DNA of 20,571 nt from Candidatus Cloacimonadota bacterium (GTDB taxonomy: Bacteria; Cloacimonadota; Cloacimonadia; JGIOTU-2). Position 1 is the first letter of the stretch. Every line of letters starts with the position of its first letter. Below, piece after piece: positions 2,379 through 20,279 of the stretch. Both the position numbers and the translations under genes were made by a program. The stretch lies in NCBI GenBank assembly GCA_016932035.1, contig JAFGDR010000002.1, positions 1-20,571 of the forward strand. Reading direction: 5' to 3'. The notes under the pieces are model-generated. The model was not told the origin of the DNA. It searched no databases and saw nothing but the letters and a program-made list of their open reading frames with translations.

Positions 2379-4301
2379 ATGAAAAAAATAGCTGTTCTTA
2401 TCTTATTTGTTATGCTCACCTCAACAGCTTTTGCAGCATACCAGGTCGGTGATGTTGTGTCAAATTTCAGCTGGACTGATAACACAGGCACGTCCCACAA
2501 TATTTATGACCTTATCGATGCTCAGAAAGCAATAGTGTTCTTTTGGGGAGGTACTGGTTGAGGTGGCTGTATTTCGGCGGCGCCGCAATTAGAAACTATT
2601 TGGCAAAACTACCAGGGAACCGGTCATTGCTACATTCTATCCGAGACAAACTGGACTTCCTATGGAGCAACATATTTTTATTCGTATGATATCGATCCTT
2701 ATTATGGTCAATATGGTAACGGATACATTCCATTCTTTGCTGTTATTGGTGGAGAATATAAGTTATATTATGGAGATAATGCTATTAGTAATGTGAGTTC
2801 AGCACTCTACGATGCAATACAATCTTTGGGTTTGTATGCCAACTTTGATGCCAATCTCTATCAAGGACCACCTGAACTGACCGTTCAATTCACCAGTAAC
2901 TCATCTGGAAATCCGGACGCATGGGATTGGGATCTTGATGGAGACGGAACCATAGATAGCCATGATGAAAATCCTTTCTGGACTTATACTGCAGTTGGAT
3001 CATATGACGTCTCATTAACGGTCTATGAAGGGACAGAAAGCGATGAACTCACTCAGGAAGATTTTATCACAGTACTCAGTCCATCAAATGTATCCGGAGA
3101 ACTAGCCGGAACATGGTCACCAACGTATGGAACATATACTGTCACCGGGAATGTTACCATTCCGACAGGAACCGTTCTTTCTGTTGAACCAAATACGAAT
3201 ATTGTTGTGAATAACGGCAGTAATATAAAAGTAAAAGGTAGGATTGAAGCAGTTGGATCTGAACGTGGTTTTGTTAATTTCTCAACCGACGATACCTGGC
3301 AAGGAATCCTTATCCAGGACAGCCAGGAAGCGAATATCATCGATCATTGCTATTTTACCGGTGCTACATCCAGTGCTGTTGATATTGATAACTCAGTTGT
3401 AGATGTTCTGAACAGTATTTTCTATGAGAATACAAATACATCGCAGAAAGGTCCGGCGATCAATGTTGTTGATGCTACAGATGTGCTTATCGAAGGTAAT
3501 ATGATAGCAAATAACTCCAGCTCAGTACTATCCGGTGGAATAGCTCTCGATAACGCACCTGTTGAAATATCGCATAATATCATTGTGAATAATGAAGCGA
3601 TGTTTGCCGGCGCGATCGGGCTGAAGAATGGCTCGGATGTATCACTTATCAATAACACAATTGCCAATAATTCTGGAAGCTATGCATGTATCTATATACT
3701 ATCTTCTTATCCTGATGTTCTTAATACTATCATCATTCATGATGGTTTGATTTTCACGACCTTCAGCGGTAATCCTTTTGTAAATTATTCATGTATTTCC
3801 GGCGGTTATTCAGGTACAGGTAATATCAGTGATGATCCTCAATTCGTAAATTCAACAGCTGGAGATGGTATTGCCTATGATGGTCTTGCAGCAGATTGGA
3901 GTTTGCAGGAAACCTCACCATGTATTGATACTGGCGATCCGACATCACCTCCCGATCCTGATGGAACCAGAGCTGATATGGGTGCCTTGTATTATTATCA
4001 TGAAGTTTCTATCGATGATCCGCATGAAAATTTGATCTATATTACTCAGAACAATCCGAATCCATTTAAAGGTTCAACCACAATTTCATACTCATTACCA
4101 AAACAAACTGAAAATGCCGTAATCACAATCTATAATGTTAAAGGTGATGTGGTGAAACAATATAATGTTGATGATAGTGAAGGTTCGGTCCAGTGGAGTG
4201 GTCTCGATCAGCATGATAAAGCTGTAGCAAGCGGAGTTTACTTCTATCGAATTCAAGGAGAAACTATTTCTCAAACGAGATCAATGATCTTTATGAGATA
4301 A
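2379..4301 (+). CDS. Secreted selenoprotein: thioredoxin-like UGGC domain, PKD, beta-helix, C-terminal sorting domain
   Basis: A 640-residue protein is obtained if UGA at 2559-2561 is read as selenocysteine 61. The start ATG has AGGAGG at 2368-2373. Residues 1-19 are a signal peptide (cleavage near AFA/AYQ). Residues 20-145 look thioredoxin/TlpA-like: AIVFFWGGTG, then Sec61-Gly-Gly-Cys64, helix PQLETIWQ and a candidate cis-Pro118 (YIPFF). The frame runs without another stop from the UGA into the downstream open frame. A PKD-like domain spans about 154-234 (WDWDLDGDGT, WTYTAVGSYDVSLTVYEG). A right-handed parallel beta-helix with repeated N-N-T/I-I rungs spans about 238-530. A Por-type sorting domain (NNPNPF, ITIYNVKGDVVK, MIFMR) ends it. 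Sec in the first position of a CxxC-like motif predicts an extracytoplasmic redox role. Substrate unknown. Ordinary gene callers would report a 60-residue fragment plus a separate gene starting at GTG 2793. tRNA-Sec, selA and selB follow directly. Confidence 0.88.
2562..2589 (+). promoter_or_regulatory. Candidate bacterial SECIS hairpin after the in-frame UGA
   Basis: Directly downstream of UGA 2559-2561 lies a GC-rich hairpin inside the coding sequence: CGGC (2575-2578), loop GGC (2579-2581), GCCG (2582-2585). Below it are a U/C mismatch (2574/2586) and an ATT/AAT extension (2571-2573/2587-2589). The apical loop begins 17 bases after the UGA and contains G. Both features fit bacterial SECIS elements, which must lie within a few tens of bases of the UGA for SelB to bind. 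The lower stem is weak, so the exact fold is uncertain. Confidence 0.6.
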
Positions 4302-4330: not shown

Positions 4331-4426
4331 TTGAGAGGAAGGAACTGGTGTTCCAGCTGGTCTTCAAAACCAGTAGTGCGCGGATAACACCGTCCATGGC
4401 AGGTTCGATTCCTGCCCTCTCGGCCA
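4331..4426 (+). tRNA. selC: tRNA-Sec (anticodon UCA)
   Basis: The anticodon arm is CTGGT / ACCAG (4357-4361/4369-4373) with a CTTCAAA loop, giving anticodon TCA at 4364-4366, which reads UGA. The D arm GGAAC-TGGT-GTTCC is at 4341-4354. A long variable arm covers roughly 4374-4398. The T arm GCAGG-TTCGATT-CCTGC is at 4399-4415. The acceptor 3' strand CCTCTCG plus G and an encoded CCA ends at 4426. The 5' boundary is uncertain: with an encoded CCA, 7 bp can form from 4332 (U-G first pair), while pairing continues out to GG at 4329-4330. Overall layout matches bacterial SelC. Eight T follow at 4427-4434 and selA starts 22 bases after them. A separate selAB promoter would have little room, so tRNA and selAB may share a transcript. 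Confidence 0.93.
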
Positions 4427-4448: not shown

Positions 4449-5834
4449 ATGGACGAAAAGAACGAATTCAGAAAAATCCCGGGGGTGGATACCTTATTGA
4501 AACAAGCAAATATACAATATTTAATACATGAATTTGGAGAAAAACTAACCGTCTTTTCAATCCGTAGTGTTCTTGATAATATACGTGAGAATGTTCTTAA
4601 AGGTAAAAATGTACCATCTAATAAACACATACATAAGATGATTATGGATGGCATTCGTTATATAGGTTCAGCATCATTAAAACCGATGATCAATGCGACA
4701 GGTGTAGCACTTCACACTAACCTGGGACGTGCACCGCTTGGAGATGTGCTGACAGCAGAAGTTGCACGGATCATTAAAGGATATTCCAACCTTGAATTTG
4801 ATTGCGATAAAGGAAAACGTGGTCATAGAGAAGTACATATTAGGGATATTGTAACATTTATAACCGGTGCTGAAGATGCAATTGTTGTGAACAACAATGC
4901 TGCTGGTGTTTTTCTTTCTTTGAAAACATTTTCCAACAGAAAAGAAGCGGTTATTTCACGTGGGGAGCTTATAGAGATTGGTGGTTCATTCCGTATTCCC
5001 GACATTATGAAACAAAGTGGTGCAAAGATGATCGAGGTTGGAACCACGAACAGAACTCATATTTCTGACTATGAAGATGCAATAATAGAGAAAACAGCGG
5101 TACTTTTCAAAGCACATAAATCAAATTATTATATTGAAGGATTCTCTGATGAAGTTGAGATCGAAGCACTTGCTCAGCTAGCACATGCAAATGGTGTAAT
5201 GTGTATCTATGATATGGGTTCGGGATTACTGAAAAAACCAAAAGGACTTCCGCTTGAAACAGAGCCGGATGTTCATGCAGCACTTCAGTCCGGTGCTGAT
5301 CTTGTAATGTTCAGCTGTGATAAATTGCTTGGTGGTCCTCAAGCAGGAATTATTGCAGGTAAGAAAGAGTATATTCATAAGCTAAGGAAATCTCCTTTGA
5401 TGAGAGTTCTGCGTGTTGGTAAAATAACGCTTGCAGCATTATCTACGGTACTTCGATGTTATCTTCGTGATGAAGACCTTCTTGAGCATGTTCCGGTATT
5501 CAGGATGCTTCATCAAACTAAAGAGGAAATCGAAAAGAAAGCGCAAATTTTCTCAAGATTACTTATAAAAAATAACATTCCGAATAAATTCATTGAGAAT
5601 ACTGCACGATGTGGTGGAGGAACGCTTCCTCAACTAAAAATTTCGAGTTATGCTGTTCAACTTGACCTTTCATCATCGAAACTGAGTGCTGAAAACGTCC
5701 AGCGTAAGCTCCTTCAATTAGATGAACCAATCCTTAGTATTCTTCGCGAAGGCAATCTACTTTTTGATGTGTTCACCTTAACAGAGGAGCAATTTGAAAT
5801 CATCGCAAAAAATCTAATAGAGATCATGATATAG
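4449..5834 (+). CDS. selA: L-seryl-tRNA(Sec) selenium transferase
   Basis: This 461-residue PLP enzyme converts Ser-tRNA-Sec to Sec-tRNA-Sec using selenophosphate, as a cytosolic oligomer. Family landmarks are visible in order: an N-terminal tRNA-binding helical region (1-75), INATGVALHTNLGRAPL (81-97), GHREVH (125-130), NNNAAGVFL (148-156), RGELIEIGGSFRIP (171-184), the YDMGSG region (254-259) and the PLP-lysine motif SCDKLLGGPQAG with Lys292. Length matches the family. The ATG has AAAGGA at 4437-4442. It lies just after tRNA-Sec and only 4 bases before selB, so selA and selB are almost certainly one operon. Confidence 0.97.
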   Translation: MDEKNEFRKIPGVDTLLKQANIQYLIHEFGEKLTVFSIRSVLDNIRENVLKGKNVPSNKHIHKMIMDGIRYIGSASLKPMINATGVALHTNLGRAPLGDVLTAEVARIIKGYSNLEFDCDKGKRGHREVHIRDIVTFITGAEDAIVVNNNAAGVFLSLKTFSNRKEAVISRGELIEIGGSFRIPDIMKQSGAKMIEVGTTNRTHISDYEDAIIEKTAVLFKAHKSNYYIEGFSDEVEIEALAQLAHANGVMCIYDMGSGLLKKPKGLPLETEPDVHAALQSGADLVMFSCDKLLGGPQAGIIAGKKEYIHKLRKSPLMRVLRVGKITLAALSTVLRCYLRDEDLLEHVPVFRMLHQTKEEIEKKAQIFSRLLIKNNIPNKFIENTARCGGGTLPQLKISSYAVQLDLSSSKLSAENVQRKLLQLDEPILSILREGNLLFDVFTLTEEQFEIIAKNLIEIMI

Positions 5835-5838
5835 AATT

Positions 5839-7770
5839 ATGAAGCACTTAATAATGGGTACTGCCGGTCATGTTGACCATGGTAAAACAGCGCTTATCAA
5901 AGCATTAACCAATTTTGACTGCGACACACATAAAGACGAGAAAAATAGAGGTATTACGATCCACCTTGGTTTTACCCATCTCGATCTGTCAAATGGAAAC
6001 AGTATCGGTATAATCGATGTGCCCGGGCATAAGGATTTCATAAATACGATGATATCCGGTGCAAGCACGATCGATTTTGTGCTCTTTACTATTGCAGCAG
6101 ACAGCAGCATCATGCCGCAGACAAAAGAGCATCTCCATATTATGGAACTTCTCGGTATTAAAGATGGGATCATTGCGTTAACAAAAAGCGATACAGTGGA
6201 TGAGGAGATATTAGAACTTGTCGAACTTGAGATCAGCGAGTTCGTTTCAGGCACGTTCCTTGAAAATGCACCGATCATTAGAACATCAGTAAAAGATAAT
6301 ACAGGAATAAAGGAGTTGCTTCAGGTAATATCAAATCTTATAGATCATATCGAATCCCGATCATCAGGATTGTTCTTCAGGATGTATATTGATAGGATCT
6401 TCACCGTTGCAGGATTCGGCACTGTCATAAACGGATCGGTTCTGCAAGGAAGAGCAACAAAGAATACCTCATTATACCTGTTACCTGGCGGAAAAGAACT
6501 GCGTATCCGAAAGATGGAGCATCATGGAAAAGAGGTAGATGAAGTGGTTTCAGGTCAAAGAGCTTCTTTAAATATTGTCGGACTCGATATCAAGGATTTC
6601 CAAAAAGGAATGCTCATCTCTGAAAGGATGATCAAACCTACGAAAATGATCGACGCAACAGTTACGCTCTTTGAACACGACAGATCGCTCGAGACATGGA
6701 ATACTGTACTCTTCCTGATGGGGACATTTGAAGACCAGGTGAGAGTACATCTCATGGACAAAGATATCCTCAAAGAAGGTGAAACAGGGCTTGTGCAGAT
6801 ACATTTTGAAAAAGAATGCTTTCCGATTTATGGTGATGCATTCATTATAAGAAGTACTTCAGGCGATATGACACTCGGCGGCGGGAAAGTATTAGATGCA
6901 TATCCGCTTCATCATAAACGGAGAACGCAGAAAGTAGTGCAGCATCTTAGCACCATAGCTTATGGAGGATTGCCGGCTTTCGTTGCAGCCGAAGTCAGAA
7001 AAAGATCATTTCCGGTTTCGATACTTTTGCTTGCAGAGATAACAAATATGCCATCAGATGAAATCGAAAAGATCGCCCAATATTCGCTTCCTGAAGACAT
7101 TGCTATAAAACAAATCGGGAAAGAAATCCTGTTGGTTCATAATGAAAAGGAAAAGGAACTTACACAAAGAATAACAAGCATTCTTTCAAAGTTTCATAAG
7201 GAAAATCCTTTTATAAAACGGGGTAAAACATTCGAGGAACTTACAAGTCTGTTACGATTCCAGAAGCAAGATGAATCATATCTGAACAATCTGATCATCC
7301 AATTGATCGATGCTGATATACTTAAAAAATTCGAGGGAACATTTACTCTTGCCCAATCGAATGTTAATATTGCAGAAGAGGATACGGATAAAATTAACCT
7401 TATCGAGCAATTCATCCTACAATCAGGAATGAAAGTTCCTTTGATGAGTGAAATTAATGAGTATGCAGGTAAAAAAGCCATCAGTTCTAAGAGGTTGCAG
7501 GACATTCTTAACTATCTTGTAGAGAATAAGAAGATCGTGATTATTGAAGGATCGTTCATTCATGCGGATATTATACATCAAGCGCAACATGCACTTATTG
7601 ATCATTTTAAGGAAAAAGATCAACTTATCCTTGCAGATTTCCGTGACCGATTGGATGCAAACAGAAAGATATGCCTTTTGCTCCTTTCTTATTTTGATGA
7701 TTTCGGTTTGACAATACGTAAAGGTGACTTTCGTGTCTTGACCGAGAAGGGAAAAACAGTATTAAAGTGA
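5839..7770 (+). CDS. selB: Selenocysteine-specific translation elongation factor SelB
   Basis: This 643-residue GTPase carries Sec-tRNA-Sec to the ribosome and recognises the SECIS hairpin of selenoprotein mRNAs. The N-terminal EF-Tu-like G domain shows GHVDHGKT (10-17), RGIT (37-40), DVPGH (60-64) and TKSD (115-118, a variant of NKxD). Beta-barrel domains follow (for example GFGTVINGSV near 194-203 and GGGKVLDAYPLHHKRR near 353-368). A C-terminal region of about 250 residues fits the tandem winged-helix domains that bind SECIS RNA. Length is close to other SelB proteins. No clear ribosome site precedes the ATG, 4 bases after the selA stop, so translational coupling is likely. Confidence 0.96.
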   Translation: MKHLIMGTAGHVDHGKTALIKALTNFDCDTHKDEKNRGITIHLGFTHLDLSNGNSIGIIDVPGHKDFINTMISGASTIDFVLFTIAADSSIMPQTKEHLHIMELLGIKDGIIALTKSDTVDEEILELVELEISEFVSGTFLENAPIIRTSVKDNTGIKELLQVISNLIDHIESRSSGLFFRMYIDRIFTVAGFGTVINGSVLQGRATKNTSLYLLPGGKELRIRKMEHHGKEVDEVVSGQRASLNIVGLDIKDFQKGMLISERMIKPTKMIDATVTLFEHDRSLETWNTVLFLMGTFEDQVRVHLMDKDILKEGETGLVQIHFEKECFPIYGDAFIIRSTSGDMTLGGGKVLDAYPLHHKRRTQKVVQHLSTIAYGGLPAFVAAEVRKRSFPVSILLLAEITNMPSDEIEKIAQYSLPEDIAIKQIGKEILLVHNEKEKELTQRITSILSKFHKENPFIKRGKTFEELTSLLRFQKQDESYLNNLIIQLIDADILKKFEGTFTLAQSNVNIAEEDTDKINLIEQFILQSGMKVPLMSEINEYAGKKAISSKRLQDILNYLVENKKIVIIEGSFIHADIIHQAQHALIDHFKEKDQLILADFRDRLDANRKICLLLLSYFDDFGLTIRKGDFRVLTEKGKTVLK

Positions 7771-10511: not shown

Positions 10512-10554
10512 TTGACATGAAATGTTTCAAACAAATCTTTTTTTTATTCGGAGG
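10512..10554 (+). promoter_or_regulatory. TTGACA element and ribosome site of first ATPase-GNAT gene
   Basis: TTGACA (10512-10517) is followed after 19 bases by a C-T-run and then GGAGG (10550-10554), 4 bases before ATG 10559. No good TATAAT is present at the usual spacing. The same layout recurs before the paralog (12162) and the last gene (20374). Confidence 0.45.
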
Positions 10555-10558
10555 TCCA

Positions 10559-12064
10559 ATGGATATCAAGAAAGTATCGACATTACATTTGCCGGTTGAC
10601 CTGGCATACTTGCCGGCAGCTCAGGCATTTATCAATGAACTTGCCCGTCTCGCAAAGTTCTCGCAAAAGGATATTACGTTCTTTAACGTTGCAGTTGAAG
10701 AAGCAGTCACAAATGTTGTTAAGCACGCATTTCTTCCTGATGAAGAAGCAACATTCGATGTTATCTGCGAGTTGACACCAGTTGAATTCAAGGTCATTAT
10801 CAAGGATAAAGGAATGCCTTTTGATCCTACTCAAGTGAAGGATTTCTCTGCAGAAAAATCATTGGAAGGCGACGAACAGGTAGGTCTTGGATTTCGACTC
10901 ATGAAGGGTAGTGTCGACCAGCTTTCATTTCATAATATGGGTTATGGTGGTAAGGAAGTTCACCTTGTTAAATTCGTAGATCAAAAACATGTCGAAAAGT
11001 ATTTCCAAAAATCTGAAATGCAGGCATTCGAACAGCCGAAATATAAATCAAAAGAAGAAAGAGTGAAGATTCCATACCATGTGGAACTCCTCCAGAAAGA
11101 TCAGGCGATCGAGATATCACAATGTGCTTATCGAACCTATGGCTACACATATATTATGGAAAATATTTACTATCCTGAACGACTGATCGAAATGACCAAG
11201 TCTGGTGAACTTATCTCAGCTGTTGCTGTATGTGATGACACTGGCGAAGCAATGAGTCATTGTGCGTTGGAGCGTTTTGGTAAAAAGTGGGATACACCTG
11301 AACTGGGAATGGCATTTACCAAACCGAAATTCCGAGGTCAGGGTGCTATGATATCCTTGAATGAGTTTCTTGAATTGGAAGCAAAAGATAAAATGATCAA
11401 AGGTATGTATGCAAAAGGAGTTACAACACATCCCTTTTCGCAAAAAGCATTACTTAGAAGTGGTTTCCAAGATGCCGCAATACTCATTGGATTATCACCT
11501 CCGAAAACATTCGAGGGTATGAAAGATCAGGGAGTCCAGCGGGAAACACTTGTCCTAAGTTATAAAAAACTCTTAGAGCAAAATGTAGAAATATATATAC
11601 CAATGCATCACAAAAAGATAATAGAGAAGATTTATAAGAATATTGAGATCGATGCGCATCTGAATACAACGGACTCTTCAAAAAAGAAGAAGAAAGATAT
11701 GATACAGTCTGATGTGGAAATCGAAGTGAAGGATACTCTTAATTTTGGGAATATATATATCAATGACAGTGGTTATAATATCAAACTTGAGATCAAGCAG
11801 CGATTGAAAGAACTCTGTCAGAAAAAGATTGAGACTGTAAATCTTTATATCGATCTCTGCGATGAAAATTCAGTAAAATATATTGAGGATTTCGAATCGC
11901 TAGGCTTTTTCTTTTCTGGGGTGTTCCCTAGTAATAAGAAGCAGTTTCTCATCCTTCAGTATCTTAATAATGTTCCTATTGATTATTCTAAGATTGTACT
12001 TGTTTCTGATTTTGCCCAGGAGCTTGGAAAATACGTTCAGGAATGTGATCCGAATCAGAAGTGA
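10559..12064 (+). CDS. RsbW-like ATPase domain fused to GNAT-like domains (copy 1)
   Basis: A 501-residue protein. Residues 5-135 are a histidine-kinase-type ATPase domain of the anti-sigma (RsbW/SpoIIAB) type: N box VEEAVTNVVKHAF with Glu47/Glu48 and Asn52, G1 box DKGMPFD (83-89), G2 box GLGFRLMKG (109-117). Residues about 165-340 are GNAT-like, with KPKFRGQGAM as the acetyl-CoA loop. A Lys-rich linker (SSKKKKKD) leads to a C-terminal segment ending LGFFFSGVFP and QYLNNVPIDY, which resembles a second GNAT-like half. The start at ATG 10559 is set by GGAGG. The protein may be a signalling switch whose kinase-like domain senses or phosphorylates a partner while the GNAT part modifies something; this is inference. 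No sigma factor or STAS antagonist is nearby. A paralog of identical length follows. Confidence 0.83.
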   Translation: MDIKKVSTLHLPVDLAYLPAAQAFINELARLAKFSQKDITFFNVAVEEAVTNVVKHAFLPDEEATFDVICELTPVEFKVIIKDKGMPFDPTQVKDFSAEKSLEGDEQVGLGFRLMKGSVDQLSFHNMGYGGKEVHLVKFVDQKHVEKYFQKSEMQAFEQPKYKSKEERVKIPYHVELLQKDQAIEISQCAYRTYGYTYIMENIYYPERLIEMTKSGELISAVAVCDDTGEAMSHCALERFGKKWDTPELGMAFTKPKFRGQGAMISLNEFLELEAKDKMIKGMYAKGVTTHPFSQKALLRSGFQDAAILIGLSPPKTFEGMKDQGVQRETLVLSYKKLLEQNVEIYIPMHHKKIIEKIYKNIEIDAHLNTTDSSKKKKKDMIQSDVEIEVKDTLNFGNIYINDSGYNIKLEIKQRLKELCQKKIETVNLYIDLCDENSVKYIEDFESLGFFFSGVFPSNKKQFLILQYLNNVPIDYSKIVLVSDFAQELGKYVQECDPNQK

Positions 12065-12108
12065 AGTTTCAGTAATTATCGCTAAGCTAAGCAGTCAAGT
12101 TTAAGAGT

Positions 12109-12118
12109 TAACGCGTTA
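12109..12118. promoter_or_regulatory. 10-bp palindrome next to promoter
   Basis: TAACGCGTTA is a perfect palindrome that directly abuts the TTGACA at 12119. It could be an operator for the second paralog; no regulator is identified. Confidence 0.25.
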
Positions 12119-12147
12119 TTGACACGTAGAATTTTATACACAATAAT
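12119..12147 (+). promoter_or_regulatory. Candidate sigma-70-like promoter of second ATPase-GNAT gene
   Basis: TTGACA (12119-12124), a 17-base spacer and AATAAT (12142-12147). A second TTGACA at 12162-12167 lies downstream in the layout shared with copy 1 (19 bases, then CC and a T-run, then GGAGG at 12203-12207). Two promoters, or one promoter and one inherited element, are both possible. Confidence 0.45.
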
Positions 12148-12211
12148 AAATGTTACAGTCCTTGACAAATGTATTTCTACATATATCCTTTTTTTTACAT
12201 TTGGAGGTTCA

Positions 12212-13717
12212 ATGAAACTTAAAAAAATATCGACACTACATGTACCAGCGGACCTGGCATACCTTGCGGCAATACAGGCGTTTATAAATGAACTTGCACG
12301 CATTGCCAAATTCTCTCAAAAGGATATTACATTTTTCAGCGTTGCTGTTGAGGAAGCAGTTACAAATGTTGTAAAACACGCATTCCTACCTGAACAAAAA
12401 GAGCACTTTGATGTCATTTGTGAATTAACACCAATTGAATTCAAGGTTATCATCCGAGATAAAGGATTACCTTTTGATCCTGATCGTGTAAAGGATTTCT
12501 CGGCTGAGAAATCTCTTGATGGAGATGAGCAGGTAGGGCTTGGTTTCAGGTTAATGAAGGGAAGTGTTGATAAAATATCATTTCATAATTTGGGTTATGG
12601 GGGTAAAGAAGTCCAGCTTGTAAAATTTATTGATCAGAAGCATATCGATGAATATCTTAAAACCTCTCAAATGGAAGCGTATGATGAACCTGAATTTGTG
12701 GCGAAAAAAGAAATTGTGAGAATTCCTTTCCATACGATGCTTCTGCAGCCAAGTCAGGCAGTCGAGATATCGCAATGTGCTTATAGAGCGTATGGTTATA
12801 CATATTTGATGGAAAATATCTATTATCCTGAACGTCTTATTGAAATGAATAAAACAGGTGAACTTATCTCTGCCGTTGCGGTGTCAGATTTAAATAATGA
12901 AGTGCTGGGACATATTGCACTTGAGTTTTTTGGAAGAAAGAAAAAGATTCCTGAGCTGGGCATGGCATTCACAAAACCAAAATTCCGCAGACAGGGATGC
13001 ATGAAACATCTGAGTGAATTTCTCGAAAACCAAGTTATGAAAAGAGGTGTTAAAGGTATCTATGCTGATGCCGTAACAGTTCATCCATATTCACAAAAAG
13101 CACTTCTCGGTATTGGTTACAAATCTGCTGGTTTGCGTATCGGTCTTGATCCGCCACGATCCTTTAAAAGTATGGAAAATCAATGTACACAGCGTGAGAC
13201 ATTGGTGCTTATGTATAAGATGTTAATTCCCCAGGATGTCCAGGTCTTTGTACCGATTCATCATAAAAGCATTATTGAGAAAATATATAAACATCTCGGG
13301 ATCAATGCAGATGTTCAGACACTTGAGGGTATTGACGAAGATAAGAGTACGGTGGTTCAGTCTGATGTGGAAGTTGATGTCGTAGAATCAGCCGGGATTG
13401 CAAGTTTTATTGTGAATTCAATTGGCAATAATTTTCTTGAAGAGATTAAGTACCGGCTTAGAGACTTGTGCCTGAAAAGGATTGAAATAATTGATCTTCG
13501 TCTGGATATGTGTGATAGAAATCTTATGAAATTCGTTCCTCAACTGGAAATGCTTGGATTCTTCTTCTCAGGCGTATTACCCGATGATGATAAACAGTAT
13601 CTCCTGCTTCAGTATCTTAACAATGTTCCTATCGATTATGATAAAATTATGTGTGAATCTGAGTTTGCTAAGGAATTAAAAGAGTATGTTAAACAGTGTG
13701 ATTCGAACAGGTTGTAG
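12212..13717 (+). CDS. RsbW-like ATPase domain fused to GNAT-like domains (copy 2)
   Basis: Paralog of the preceding gene with the same length (501 residues) and collinear throughout; most positions agree by eye, most strongly in the ATPase domain. The N box (VEEAVTNVVKHAF), G1 box (DKGLPFD) and G2 box (GLGFRLMKG) are intact. The GNAT loop reads KPKFRRQGCM instead of KPKFRGQGAM, replacing the first loop Gly with Arg, so acetyl-CoA binding may differ between copies. The Lys-rich linker of copy 1 is replaced by an acidic one (EGIDEDKS). The C-terminal LGFFFSGVLP and QYLNNVPIDYDKI segment is conserved. ATG 12212 is preferred over an upstream in-frame TTG at 12119 because GGAGG (12203-12207) fits and the extension is not shared by copy 1. 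It converges with the permease gene, 5 bases away. Confidence 0.83.
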   Translation: MKLKKISTLHVPADLAYLAAIQAFINELARIAKFSQKDITFFSVAVEEAVTNVVKHAFLPEQKEHFDVICELTPIEFKVIIRDKGLPFDPDRVKDFSAEKSLDGDEQVGLGFRLMKGSVDKISFHNLGYGGKEVQLVKFIDQKHIDEYLKTSQMEAYDEPEFVAKKEIVRIPFHTMLLQPSQAVEISQCAYRAYGYTYLMENIYYPERLIEMNKTGELISAVAVSDLNNEVLGHIALEFFGRKKKIPELGMAFTKPKFRRQGCMKHLSEFLENQVMKRGVKGIYADAVTVHPYSQKALLGIGYKSAGLRIGLDPPRSFKSMENQCTQRETLVLMYKMLIPQDVQVFVPIHHKSIIEKIYKHLGINADVQTLEGIDEDKSTVVQSDVEVDVVESAGIASFIVNSIGNNFLEEIKYRLRDLCLKRIEIIDLRLDMCDRNLMKFVPQLEMLGFFFSGVLPDDDKQYLLLQYLNNVPIDYDKIMCESEFAKELKEYVKQCDSNRL

Positions 13718-18019: not shown

Positions 18020-18080
18020 TCTTCATTATGTGTAACTGACTTTATTGACACAATTTTCAGGAATCTTTTTGTCAAATATT

Positions 18081-20279
18081 ATGAAACCTATCTATCTCGA
18101 TTATAATGCGACCACACCTCTTGCGCCCGAAGTGGCAGAGGCAATGAAACCTTTTTTGGATGAATATTTCGGCAATCCCTCCAGTTCGCACTGGTATGGT
18201 GTTCAAACACGCAAAGCCGTTGAAAAGGCACGTGCACAGGTGGCAGTGCTCTTGCATGCAAATCCTGATGAGATCATCTTTACCAGCGGTGGTTCGGAGT
18301 CCAATAATTTTGCGATCAAAGGCATTGCTCATGCGCGGAAATCAATCGGTAATCATATTATTACGTCAGCAGTAGAGCACCCAGCAGTTGTCGAAGTATG
18401 CGAATACTTGAAATCGGAAGGATTTGAGATAACCTATATTCCGGTTGATGAGTACGGCATGGTGAATCCGGATGATGTTGAACGGGCGATCACTCCGAGA
18501 ACAATACTGATCACGATCATGCATGCAAACAACGAAGTTGGAACGATCCAGCCGATTCGCGAGATCGCTGAGATCGCTTATGCGCACGATATTATTATGC
18601 ATACGGATGCTGCACAGTCAACAGGGAAAATTCCGGTACATGTTGATGAACTGAACGTCGATCTGCTGTCGATTGCAGGGCATAAGTTATATGGACCCAA
18701 AGGCATCGGTGCACTCTATATCAGACGGGGCGTGAAGCTGGAAAAGATCATTCATGGTGCAGATCATGAGCAGAATTTGCGCGCAGGGACAGAGAATATT
18801 TTATGTGATGTGGGTCTCGGAAAAGCATGTGAGATCGCTGAAAGAGACCTGCAGAACAATATGAAACACATGCAGGAGATGAGGGATTTACTTCATCAGA
18901 AATTCGAGGAGTCAGGATTGGATTTCCGATTGAACGGGAATCCTGAAAAACGTCTGCCGAACACACTCAGTCTTTCGTTCAGAAACGTGGAAGCTAACAC
19001 CGTTCTTTCCGAACTGTCACACGTGGCAGTATCGGCAGGAGCTGCGTGCCATTCCGACCAGATCGATGTGTCCGCAGTACTCGAAGCGATGGATGTTCCC
19101 CTTGACTATGCCATGGGTACGATACGCTTTTCAACAGGACGATTCACCACAAAGGATGAGATTGAGAAAGCAGCTGAAGAAGTCATACAAGTCATTGGCA
19201 AATTCCAGGAGGGAACACGAGCCGATGTTACTGACGAAGTAAAGGAGATCAAACTCACGCACTATACGCATGGCATGGGCTGTGCTTGCAAGATCGAGCC
19301 GGCATTGCTTGAAGATATTTTAAAGAACCTGCCCATCCCTGATGATACAAAAATATTGGTGGGTACACAAACTGCTGATGATGCGGCAGTGTATAAGATA
19401 AATGATGAAACAGCACTTGTGGTTACGCTGGATTTCTTTACACCAATTGCTGACGATCCTTTTGAATTCGGCGCTATCGCTGCAGCCAATGCATTGAGTG
19501 ACATCTATGCAATGGGAGCAATGCCATTATTTGGTCTCAATATTGTTGCATTTCCGTCGAACAGACTACCGATGGCTGTATTGGAGAAAATCCTTCAAGG
19601 AGCCCAGACTAAAGCGCAGGAAGCAGGTATCTATGTGATCGGTGGTCATTCCATCGAGGATACCGAACCAAAGTATGGAATGGTTGTTGTTGGTAGTGTT
19701 CATCCTAATAAAATCTGGAAGAATGTAGGATTGCAAGAGAATGATGCACTGATCTTAACCAAACCGATTGGCACCGGCATTCTTTCGACTGCACTTAAAA
19801 GAGGTTTGCTGGATGATGCACAAAAGGATTTACTTATCTCTACGATGTCCGGATTGAATAAGCTGGCATCCGAAGTTCTCCAGAAATATCCTGTTCATGC
19901 ATGTACAGATATAACAGGTTTTGGGCTGATCGGACATCTATCTGAGATGGTTTTGGGGAGTAATACGGCAGTTGAGATTATAGCTGAAAAGGTTCCGGTG
20001 CTTGAAGGTGTTTTTGAATTGGCAGCAGGAAATGTTATTCCGGGTGGAACGCTTTCCAATATGAAATTTGTCGAGGATGTTGTCCTGTGGAGTCCTCAAC
20101 TTTCGCAGGTTCAGAAGATCGTTCTATGCGATGCCCAAACATCCGGAGGATTACTCGCAGCCGTACCTGGAAATAAAGCACAGGACATAGTTCAAACCTT
20201 GCATGATACTGGGATAATCAAGGCACAGATAGTTGGTAAAGTAGTTGAAGGATTACAGCCGAAGATTAGAGTGGTGTAA
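18081..20279 (+). CDS. selD: NifS-like cysteine desulfurase / selenocysteine lyase fused to selenophosphate synthetase
   Basis: A 732-residue two-domain protein. Residues 1-375 are a PLP cysteine desulfurase: YLDYNATTPL, FTSGGSESNN, the HxxV segment at EHPAVVE, HTDAAQSTGK, PLP lysine Lys202 in AGHKLYGPKG, and the active-site Cys323 loop SAGAACHSD. Residues 390-732 are SelD: LTHYTHGMGCACK with catalytic Cys401 and Lys404, DDAAVY, a DFFTPIADDPFEFG loop, IGGHSIEDTEPKYG, TDITGFGLIGHL and CDAQTSGGLL. The first domain can liberate selenium from selenocysteine and the second makes selenophosphate from it with ATP, which suggests channelling to SelA. The catalytic residue of SelD is Cys, not Sec. ATG 18081 is preferred to an in-frame TTG at 18045 because homology begins MKPIYLDYNATTP; no good ribosome site is seen. 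It supplies the selAB cluster 10 kb away. Confidence 0.96.
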   Translation: MKPIYLDYNATTPLAPEVAEAMKPFLDEYFGNPSSSHWYGVQTRKAVEKARAQVAVLLHANPDEIIFTSGGSESNNFAIKGIAHARKSIGNHIITSAVEHPAVVEVCEYLKSEGFEITYIPVDEYGMVNPDDVERAITPRTILITIMHANNEVGTIQPIREIAEIAYAHDIIMHTDAAQSTGKIPVHVDELNVDLLSIAGHKLYGPKGIGALYIRRGVKLEKIIHGADHEQNLRAGTENILCDVGLGKACEIAERDLQNNMKHMQEMRDLLHQKFEESGLDFRLNGNPEKRLPNTLSLSFRNVEANTVLSELSHVAVSAGAACHSDQIDVSAVLEAMDVPLDYAMGTIRFSTGRFTTKDEIEKAAEEVIQVIGKFQEGTRADVTDEVKEIKLTHYTHGMGCACKIEPALLEDILKNLPIPDDTKILVGTQTADDAAVYKINDETALVVTLDFFTPIADDPFEFGAIAAANALSDIYAMGAMPLFGLNIVAFPSNRLPMAVLEKILQGAQTKAQEAGIYVIGGHSIEDTEPKYGMVVVGSVHPNKIWKNVGLQENDALILTKPIGTGILSTALKRGLLDDAQKDLLISTMSGLNKLASEVLQKYPVHACTDITGFGLIGHLSEMVLGSNTAVEIIAEKVPVLEGVFELAAGNVIPGGTLSNMKFVEDVVLWSPQLSQVQKIVLCDAQTSGGLLAAVPGNKAQDIVQTLHDTGIIKAQIVGKVVEGLQPKIRVV

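Follow-up and report, generated by a model that had tools for sequence, protein, structure and literature searches.

A predicted exported thioredoxin-like selenoprotein encoded beside selC, selA and selB in a Cloacimonadota genome

The DNA analysed here, referred to below as the window, is a stretch of 20,571 nucleotides that makes up an entire contig (C2) of a 2.44-Mb Candidatus Cloacimonadota genome (G000). It contains a reading frame that is interrupted once, by a UGA codon, a short distance upstream of genes for the insertion of selenocysteine (Sec). The locus thus poses the question of whether this UGA ends a short peptide or is read as Sec within a much longer protein. We consider it very probable, judging from the sequence, that positions 2379–4301 of the forward strand are one gene for an exported thioredoxin-like selenoprotein with a type IX secretion system (T9SS) tail, in which UGA 2559 would be read as Sec under the direction of a SECIS element. 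The basis for this is the frame, the conservation of the UGA and of a hairpin that follows it, the adjoining machinery, the predicted fold, the C-terminal tail and the gene cluster in which the family occurs; from these we infer Sec insertion, export, redox activity and a source of electrons.

The reading frame and the selenocysteine machinery

The frame begins at ATG 2379, which is preceded by a strong Shine–Dalgarno sequence (AGGAGG), and its only interruption before the TAA that ends at 4301 is the TGA at 2559–2561. This agrees with an earlier sequence-only reading of the locus, in which a signal peptide and a thioredoxin-like start led into the UGA, with the frame open beyond it to 4301. 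Read through, the gene specifies 640 residues with the predicted Sec at position 61 (GGTG-U-GGC). When ORFs of at least 90 residues are called with genetic code table 11, only the downstream ORF from GTG 2793 is obtained, as that reading had foreseen; no Shine–Dalgarno sequence is visible just upstream of this GTG. Across the 77 codons that separate the UGA from GTG 2793, the differences from same-genus homologs fall at codon positions 1, 2 and 3 in numbers such as 5/5/25, 6/6/26 and 6/4/22. This excess at third positions argues that, downstream of the UGA, selection acts on a protein encoded in the unchanged frame.

The placement of tRNA-Sec, selA and selB directly downstream, also claimed from the sequence alone, is borne out by ARAGORN, Rfam and TIGRFAM matches. 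The tRNA-Sec gene selC (UCA; 4332–4426) starts about 30 bases past the TAA and is found by ARAGORN and by Rfam model RF01852 with 60.1 bits. It is followed on the same strand by selA (4449–5834; TIGR00474, 533.9 bits) and selB (5839–7770; TIGR00475, 324.8 bits). Further along the forward strand, positions 18045–20279 encode a NifS-like cysteine desulfurase fused to SelD; the first part scores 473.2 bits with TIGR03402, below the cut-off of 530.75, and the second 381.2 bits with TIGR00476, over the cut-off. The genome therefore holds all of selA, selB, selC and selD. The SelD part is of the Cys form, having Cys (GMGCACK) at a site that is often Sec in SelD proteins, and the acceptor stem of the tRNA-Sec may be of the short 7+5 Cloacimonetes type (PMC5330540). 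UGA remains a stop codon in the window, where selB and the gene after it both end in TGA.

Domain architecture and predicted fold

The protein opens with a predicted signal peptide (MKKIAVLILFVMLTSTAFA; 2379–2435), which was read from the sequence, appears as a conserved hydrophobic leader in the alignment and forms a helix at residues 2–15 in the structural model; it would serve for export. Residues 20–151 (2436–2831) make up a TlpA/ResA-like thioredoxin domain with the motif UGGC. The Pfam matches of this domain to the TlpA/ResA/AhpC-TSA and Redoxin group are weak, at 23.1 bits against a gathering score of 26, which two homologs do pass (L014, 27.1 bits; L018, 27.9 bits). An AlphaFold model built with 30 homologs has a thioredoxin fold with a pLDDT of 93.2, in which Sec61 stands immediately before a long helix and after a strand ending in FFW, the place that the first Cys occupies in thioredoxins. 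The best Foldseek matches are ResA-type oxidoreductases, led among PDB entries by the thiol-disulfide oxidoreductase 4nmu (TM 0.70). The proposal that the UGA falls where a redox residue belongs is supported by two alignments in which U meets the first Cys of the CxxC motif: a pairwise one with the genome's own TlpA paralog (FWAKWCNPC against FWGGTGUGGC) and a profile match to 3hcz. It would be natural, on these alignments, for the selenol of Sec61 to be the attacking group and for Cys64 to resolve; the most likely substrates are disulfides in the envelope, which the domain would reduce or exchange, or else other oxidants there.

The rest of the chain comprises a PKD domain (residues 166–232, 2874–3074; PF18911, 32.6 bits), a right-handed β-helix (residues 300–443, 3276–3707; PF13229, 30.3 bits) and a T9SS C-terminal sorting/FlgD Ig-like (Por secretion) tail (residues 560–636, 4056–4286), all over their cut-offs. 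The tail is matched by PF18962 (31.5 bits, cut-off 27), TIGR04183 (33.5 bits, cut-off 23) and PF13860. Neither the β-helix nor the tail figured in the sequence-only reading. Given this tail, the protein should leave by the type IX secretion system and arrive at the outer surface; the genome encodes the translocon protein SprA of this system, at 570.6 bits summed over matches against a cut-off of 200.

Conservation and proposed decoding of the UGA

Homologs were sought with the domain alone among 40 relatives and then with an alignment in 124 genomes of the phylum. Counting the window's own, these searches gave 38 strong matches to the full domain, and 37 of these, from 32 genomes, contain exactly one TGA, which lies at the Sec61 position in every copy examined base by base. 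The codon is shared down to about 40% identity, and same-genus homologs share the length of the protein too. The homologs do not stop at the UGA but retain the codon and continue beyond it. Outside the genus the N-terminal domain is always the same and the C-terminal parts vary (fn3, CarboxypepD_reg and, in L018, dockerin-like). In the L018 protein (L018:751-1932, minus strand), the dockerin-like C-terminus replaces the T9SS tail, with a PF00404 score of 22.3 bits, slightly below the cut-off.

The one copy that lacks the UGA (L066, from L066:2384 onward) reads EDWSPSS, with Ser in place of both Sec and the resolving Cys. We take it to be a decayed copy whose domain may no longer serve in redox chemistry; a T9SS-like tail is retained. 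No Cys ortholog of the exact window family was found: Cys stands in place of Sec in TlpA paralogs and in a second UGA family described below (TGC in L099, L110, L112 and L114). Among 84,980 species genomes, scanned with short peptide patterns that distant members elsewhere could escape, matches came only from Cloacimonadota-type records and from one record labelled Armatimonadetes; its matching stretch is identical to that of genome G093, placed in the same class. None of the contrary observations named in the sequence-only reading, namely homologs ending at the UGA, TGG or TGT in its place, or a lack of homologs with Cys or Sec there, was encountered.

The family also goes together with the Sec machinery. 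A SelB or tRNA-Sec marker exceeds its cut-off in 30 of the 32 genomes that have a window-family gene; in the other two, G087 (61% complete) and G105 (92%), the gene is present and neither marker was found at the cut-offs used. All 49 genomes of family f3 are without both markers and without the gene. Over the 124 genomes, the association of gene and markers has a two-sided Fisher p of 1.8e-8, a value that ignores relatedness. Only matches over cut-off were counted, because SelB and tRNA-Sec searches match weakly in most genomes, to EF-Tu-like factors and to other tRNAs. Adjacency to selC is seen in seven genomes, drawn from genera g1 and g4, where the gene ends about 30 bases ahead of it. At the other window-family loci no tRNA-Sec was found within the 1.5-kb flanks, and the genome-wide search puts one just beyond the end of several of these flanked loci.

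The GC-rich hairpin that had been noted after the UGA does exist, and homologs conserve it as a nucleotide sequence. By itself the window sequence does not fold significantly (RNAfold, 2550–2610, z −1.4), so the hairpin was judged by comparison of homologs. Its core, CGGC-GGC-GCCG (2575–2585, forward strand), places the loop 17 nt after the UGA and is near-invariant: in 32 aligned sequences, with three exceptions, the stretch starting 13 nt 3′ of the UGA reads CGGC-GGC-GCCG. It is written in Ala-Ala-Pro codons, and within it 63 of the 64 Ala codons are GCG and 31 of the 32 Pro codons are CCG; elsewhere in the same ORFs these codons account for 7% of Ala and 17% of Pro. RNAalifold returns the same hairpin from the homolog alignment. 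None of 500 shuffles, which ignore relatedness, attains its covariation score or its pairing, and no slid version of the alignment attains the covariation score. Both sides have changed in three of the six pairs, and in L063 a compensatory A-U replaces C-G; since the upper stem is almost invariant, the covariation rests on the lower pairs and this one sequence. In L066, the copy without UGA, the hairpin is lost and the Ala codons are GCA GCT GCA (GCAGCTGCA). The minimum free energy alternative, in which GGTGGCTGT pairs with the GC-rich stretch, was dropped as it cannot fully form in members of UPSC type (CCTAGC).

The published bacterial SECIS (bSECIS) model calls for an apical loop of 3–9 nt with G within the first two places, a stem of at least 4 bp, a loop 16–37 nt after the UGA and an energy of −7.5 kcal/mol or lower (PMC13188914). 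The SECIS check suggested in the sequence-only reading yields a SECIS-like hairpin that fits the shape, with a GGC loop (G first), a 4-bp stem and 17-nt spacing, and that is conserved among homologs; in the window, the small hairpin itself has an energy of about −4.5 kcal/mol against the threshold of −7.5. A 42-nt fold of the window sequence reaches −10.9 kcal/mol in a different shape, and the hairpins of homologs L063, L011 and L053 have energies of −8.0, −9.7 and −14.0 kcal/mol, respectively. We propose that the UGA would be decoded as Sec by the tRNA-Sec, SelA and SelB encoded just downstream and that this short hairpin would direct the insertion.

Bacterial Sec insertion competes with the release factor, so some truncated product is to be expected, and the locus might then act as a regulated switch, at which translation mostly ends to give a secreted peptide of 60 residues and reads through with Sec only under ample selenium. 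We think this unlikely: in the model the 60-residue product is a thioredoxin fold cut just ahead of the active-site helix, by itself it matches no family, and the pattern of conservation is that of the full domain. The open frame would also fit insertion of an ordinary amino acid (Trp, Gly or Cys) at the UGA, whether by suppression or under a changed code. This is very unlikely in view of the UGA codons that end selB and its neighbour within the same window, the complete selC-selA-selB set adjoining the gene, the SECIS-like hairpin after the UGA and the absence of the gene from genomes of family f3, which are without Sec markers. That the UGA is a true stop, arisen by nonsense mutation, assembly error or gene decay, with the GTG 2793 ORF a separate gene or debris, is extremely unlikely: MAGs can hold such errors (a subtilase gene described below has a lone TGA where the ortholog is open) and GTG 2793 does open a long table 11 ORF, but the same TGA was assembled separately in 32 genomes, codon third-position bias continues beyond it, the nucleotide-level hairpin is retained only where the UGA is, and GTG 2793 has no visible Shine–Dalgarno sequence right before it. 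Decoding of UGA 2559 as Sec is accordingly the reading that we adopt.

Related selenoproteins and the conserved gene cluster

A 2026 review lists 119 selenoprotein families or subfamilies, several of them UxxC thioredoxin-like; its entries of TlpA/redoxin type are the PF00578 Prx-like thiol:disulfide oxidoreductase, the PF08534 redoxin family and a cd02966 thiol-disulfide isomerase-like group (PMC13188914 and its Table 1). The window protein shares with the UxxC members the thioredoxin fold, the motif and a redox-type domain. It differs in that this domain forms the N-terminal part of a 640-residue protein with PKD, β-helix and T9SS parts, and in that it scores below the cut-offs of both PF00578 and PF08534. 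No NCBIfam selenoprotein model matches the domain significantly. In ResA/TlpA oxidoreductases (4nmu, 2h1b), its best structural matches with TM values of about 0.65–0.7, the first Cys of CxxC is at the position of Sec; the window domain departs from them in having Sec for Cys, one more residue before the motif (FWGGTG-U) and a different C-terminal half (GNGYxPFFAVIG). The catalogue holds no entry with the window architecture, and its text is silent on Cloacimonadota, T9SS and secreted proteins (PMC13188914). In the non-subscription literature on Cloacimonadota, T9SS and Omp28 selenoproteins we found nothing on the window family, single members of which may have been annotated automatically, and no report of a selenoprotein with a type IX secretion tail. 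We have high confidence that the window protein is a selenoprotein; its UxxC thioredoxin-like kind is already known, and within that kind the window family, with its predicted exported T9SS architecture, is new as a family-level variant. As standard gene callers split the gene, 37 proteins of the phylum are probably annotated wrongly, each as a 60-residue fragment and a headless surface protein.

The same genome has two further UGA genes. One (L119:1630, at about position 5393 of contig C11) encodes a peroxiredoxin with an in-frame TGA in PGDFTFVU (TxxU), a known Sec family; unlike the window protein it has no T9SS tail, and its hairpin, CUCUGC-GGUC-GCAGAG, resembles that of the window gene and has the same 17-nt spacing from UGA to loop. 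The other (L002:427-2591, minus strand, on contig C57) is T9SS-tailed. Its product (MKKLL...VFTSTS-U-GYCPSARAGL) joins an Omp28-like N-terminus with UGYC to a PKD/β-helix/T9SS body; over residues 150–640 it shares 49% identity with the window protein, and the two N-terminal domains differ, so that only this body is common. Its family is large, numbering dozens of relatives within the phylum; in many Sec-marked genomes the member has one TGA, and in other genomes it has Cys instead. The family hairpin has 7 bp and a 3-nt loop, with pair swaps CG/UG/GC and GC/UA, and a covariation score reached by 0 of 500 shuffles. The nearest known selenoprotein to this second family is the thioredoxin-like, UxxC, Omp28-related NF045500 (GOS_C of PMC2398784), which matches the L002 protein (P0003) with an E-value of 5.8e-25 and 88.4 bits against a curated cut-off of 200, as a distant relative.

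Both T9SS-tailed genes belong to one conserved neighbourhood. In genome G003, a single strand carries, in order, genes for DsbD, an Omp28-like lipoprotein, TlpA, a DUF6029 outer-membrane protein, a T9SS protein, a subtilase, a Vps10-like propeller, the second-family Sec protein and the window-family Sec protein, and then selC, selA and selB. In G000 the first eight of these genes lie on contig C57, which ends just past the second-family gene, and the rest open C2, so the two contigs likely adjoin. Family f4 (L125, L126, L047 and L049) again groups the genes for DsbD, the lipoprotein, TlpA, DUF6029, the T9SS protein and the window-family Sec protein, and the cluster from DsbD to the T9SS protein is seen in L127:424-13062 and in L124. 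In the Sec-less genomes G018 and G044 (L128, L129), the last slot of the cluster is taken by a 448-residue protein that has a thioredoxin-like Cys motif (TWCLNC or TWCMNC) and a tail of T9SS-like type.

The presence of both UGA families within the DsbD-TlpA-DUF6029-T9SS cluster suggests a redox relay that would reach the cell surface, and an envelope redox chain is plausible from the make-up of the cluster. The reducing power for the window protein would probably come from the DsbD-TlpA system of this cluster, conserved in relatives. More tentatively, and as a reading less likely than not, one may picture a selenium electron relay spanning the Cloacimonadota envelope. Electrons would pass from DsbD to periplasmic TlpA and the Omp28-like lipoprotein, cross or bypass the DUF6029 outer-membrane protein, and end on thioredoxin-like selenoproteins that T9SS would have exported and that would be held at the surface; in Sec-less genomes of the phylum the Cys version (CLNC) would be the last member. 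The Cys-type protein in the same slot offers a natural comparison, which across the phylum could show what selenium buys an exported redox enzyme.

Two minor features are recorded. The G003 subtilase gene has a lone in-frame TGA (L124:12922-12924, minus strand) at a Gly of its G000 ortholog; this is likely a mutation or an assembly error and not Sec. Within the window, positions 10517–13717 hold two related genes in tandem (515 and 532 residues), each resembling an anti-sigma-type ATPase domain followed by a GNAT-like part, an apparent duplication.
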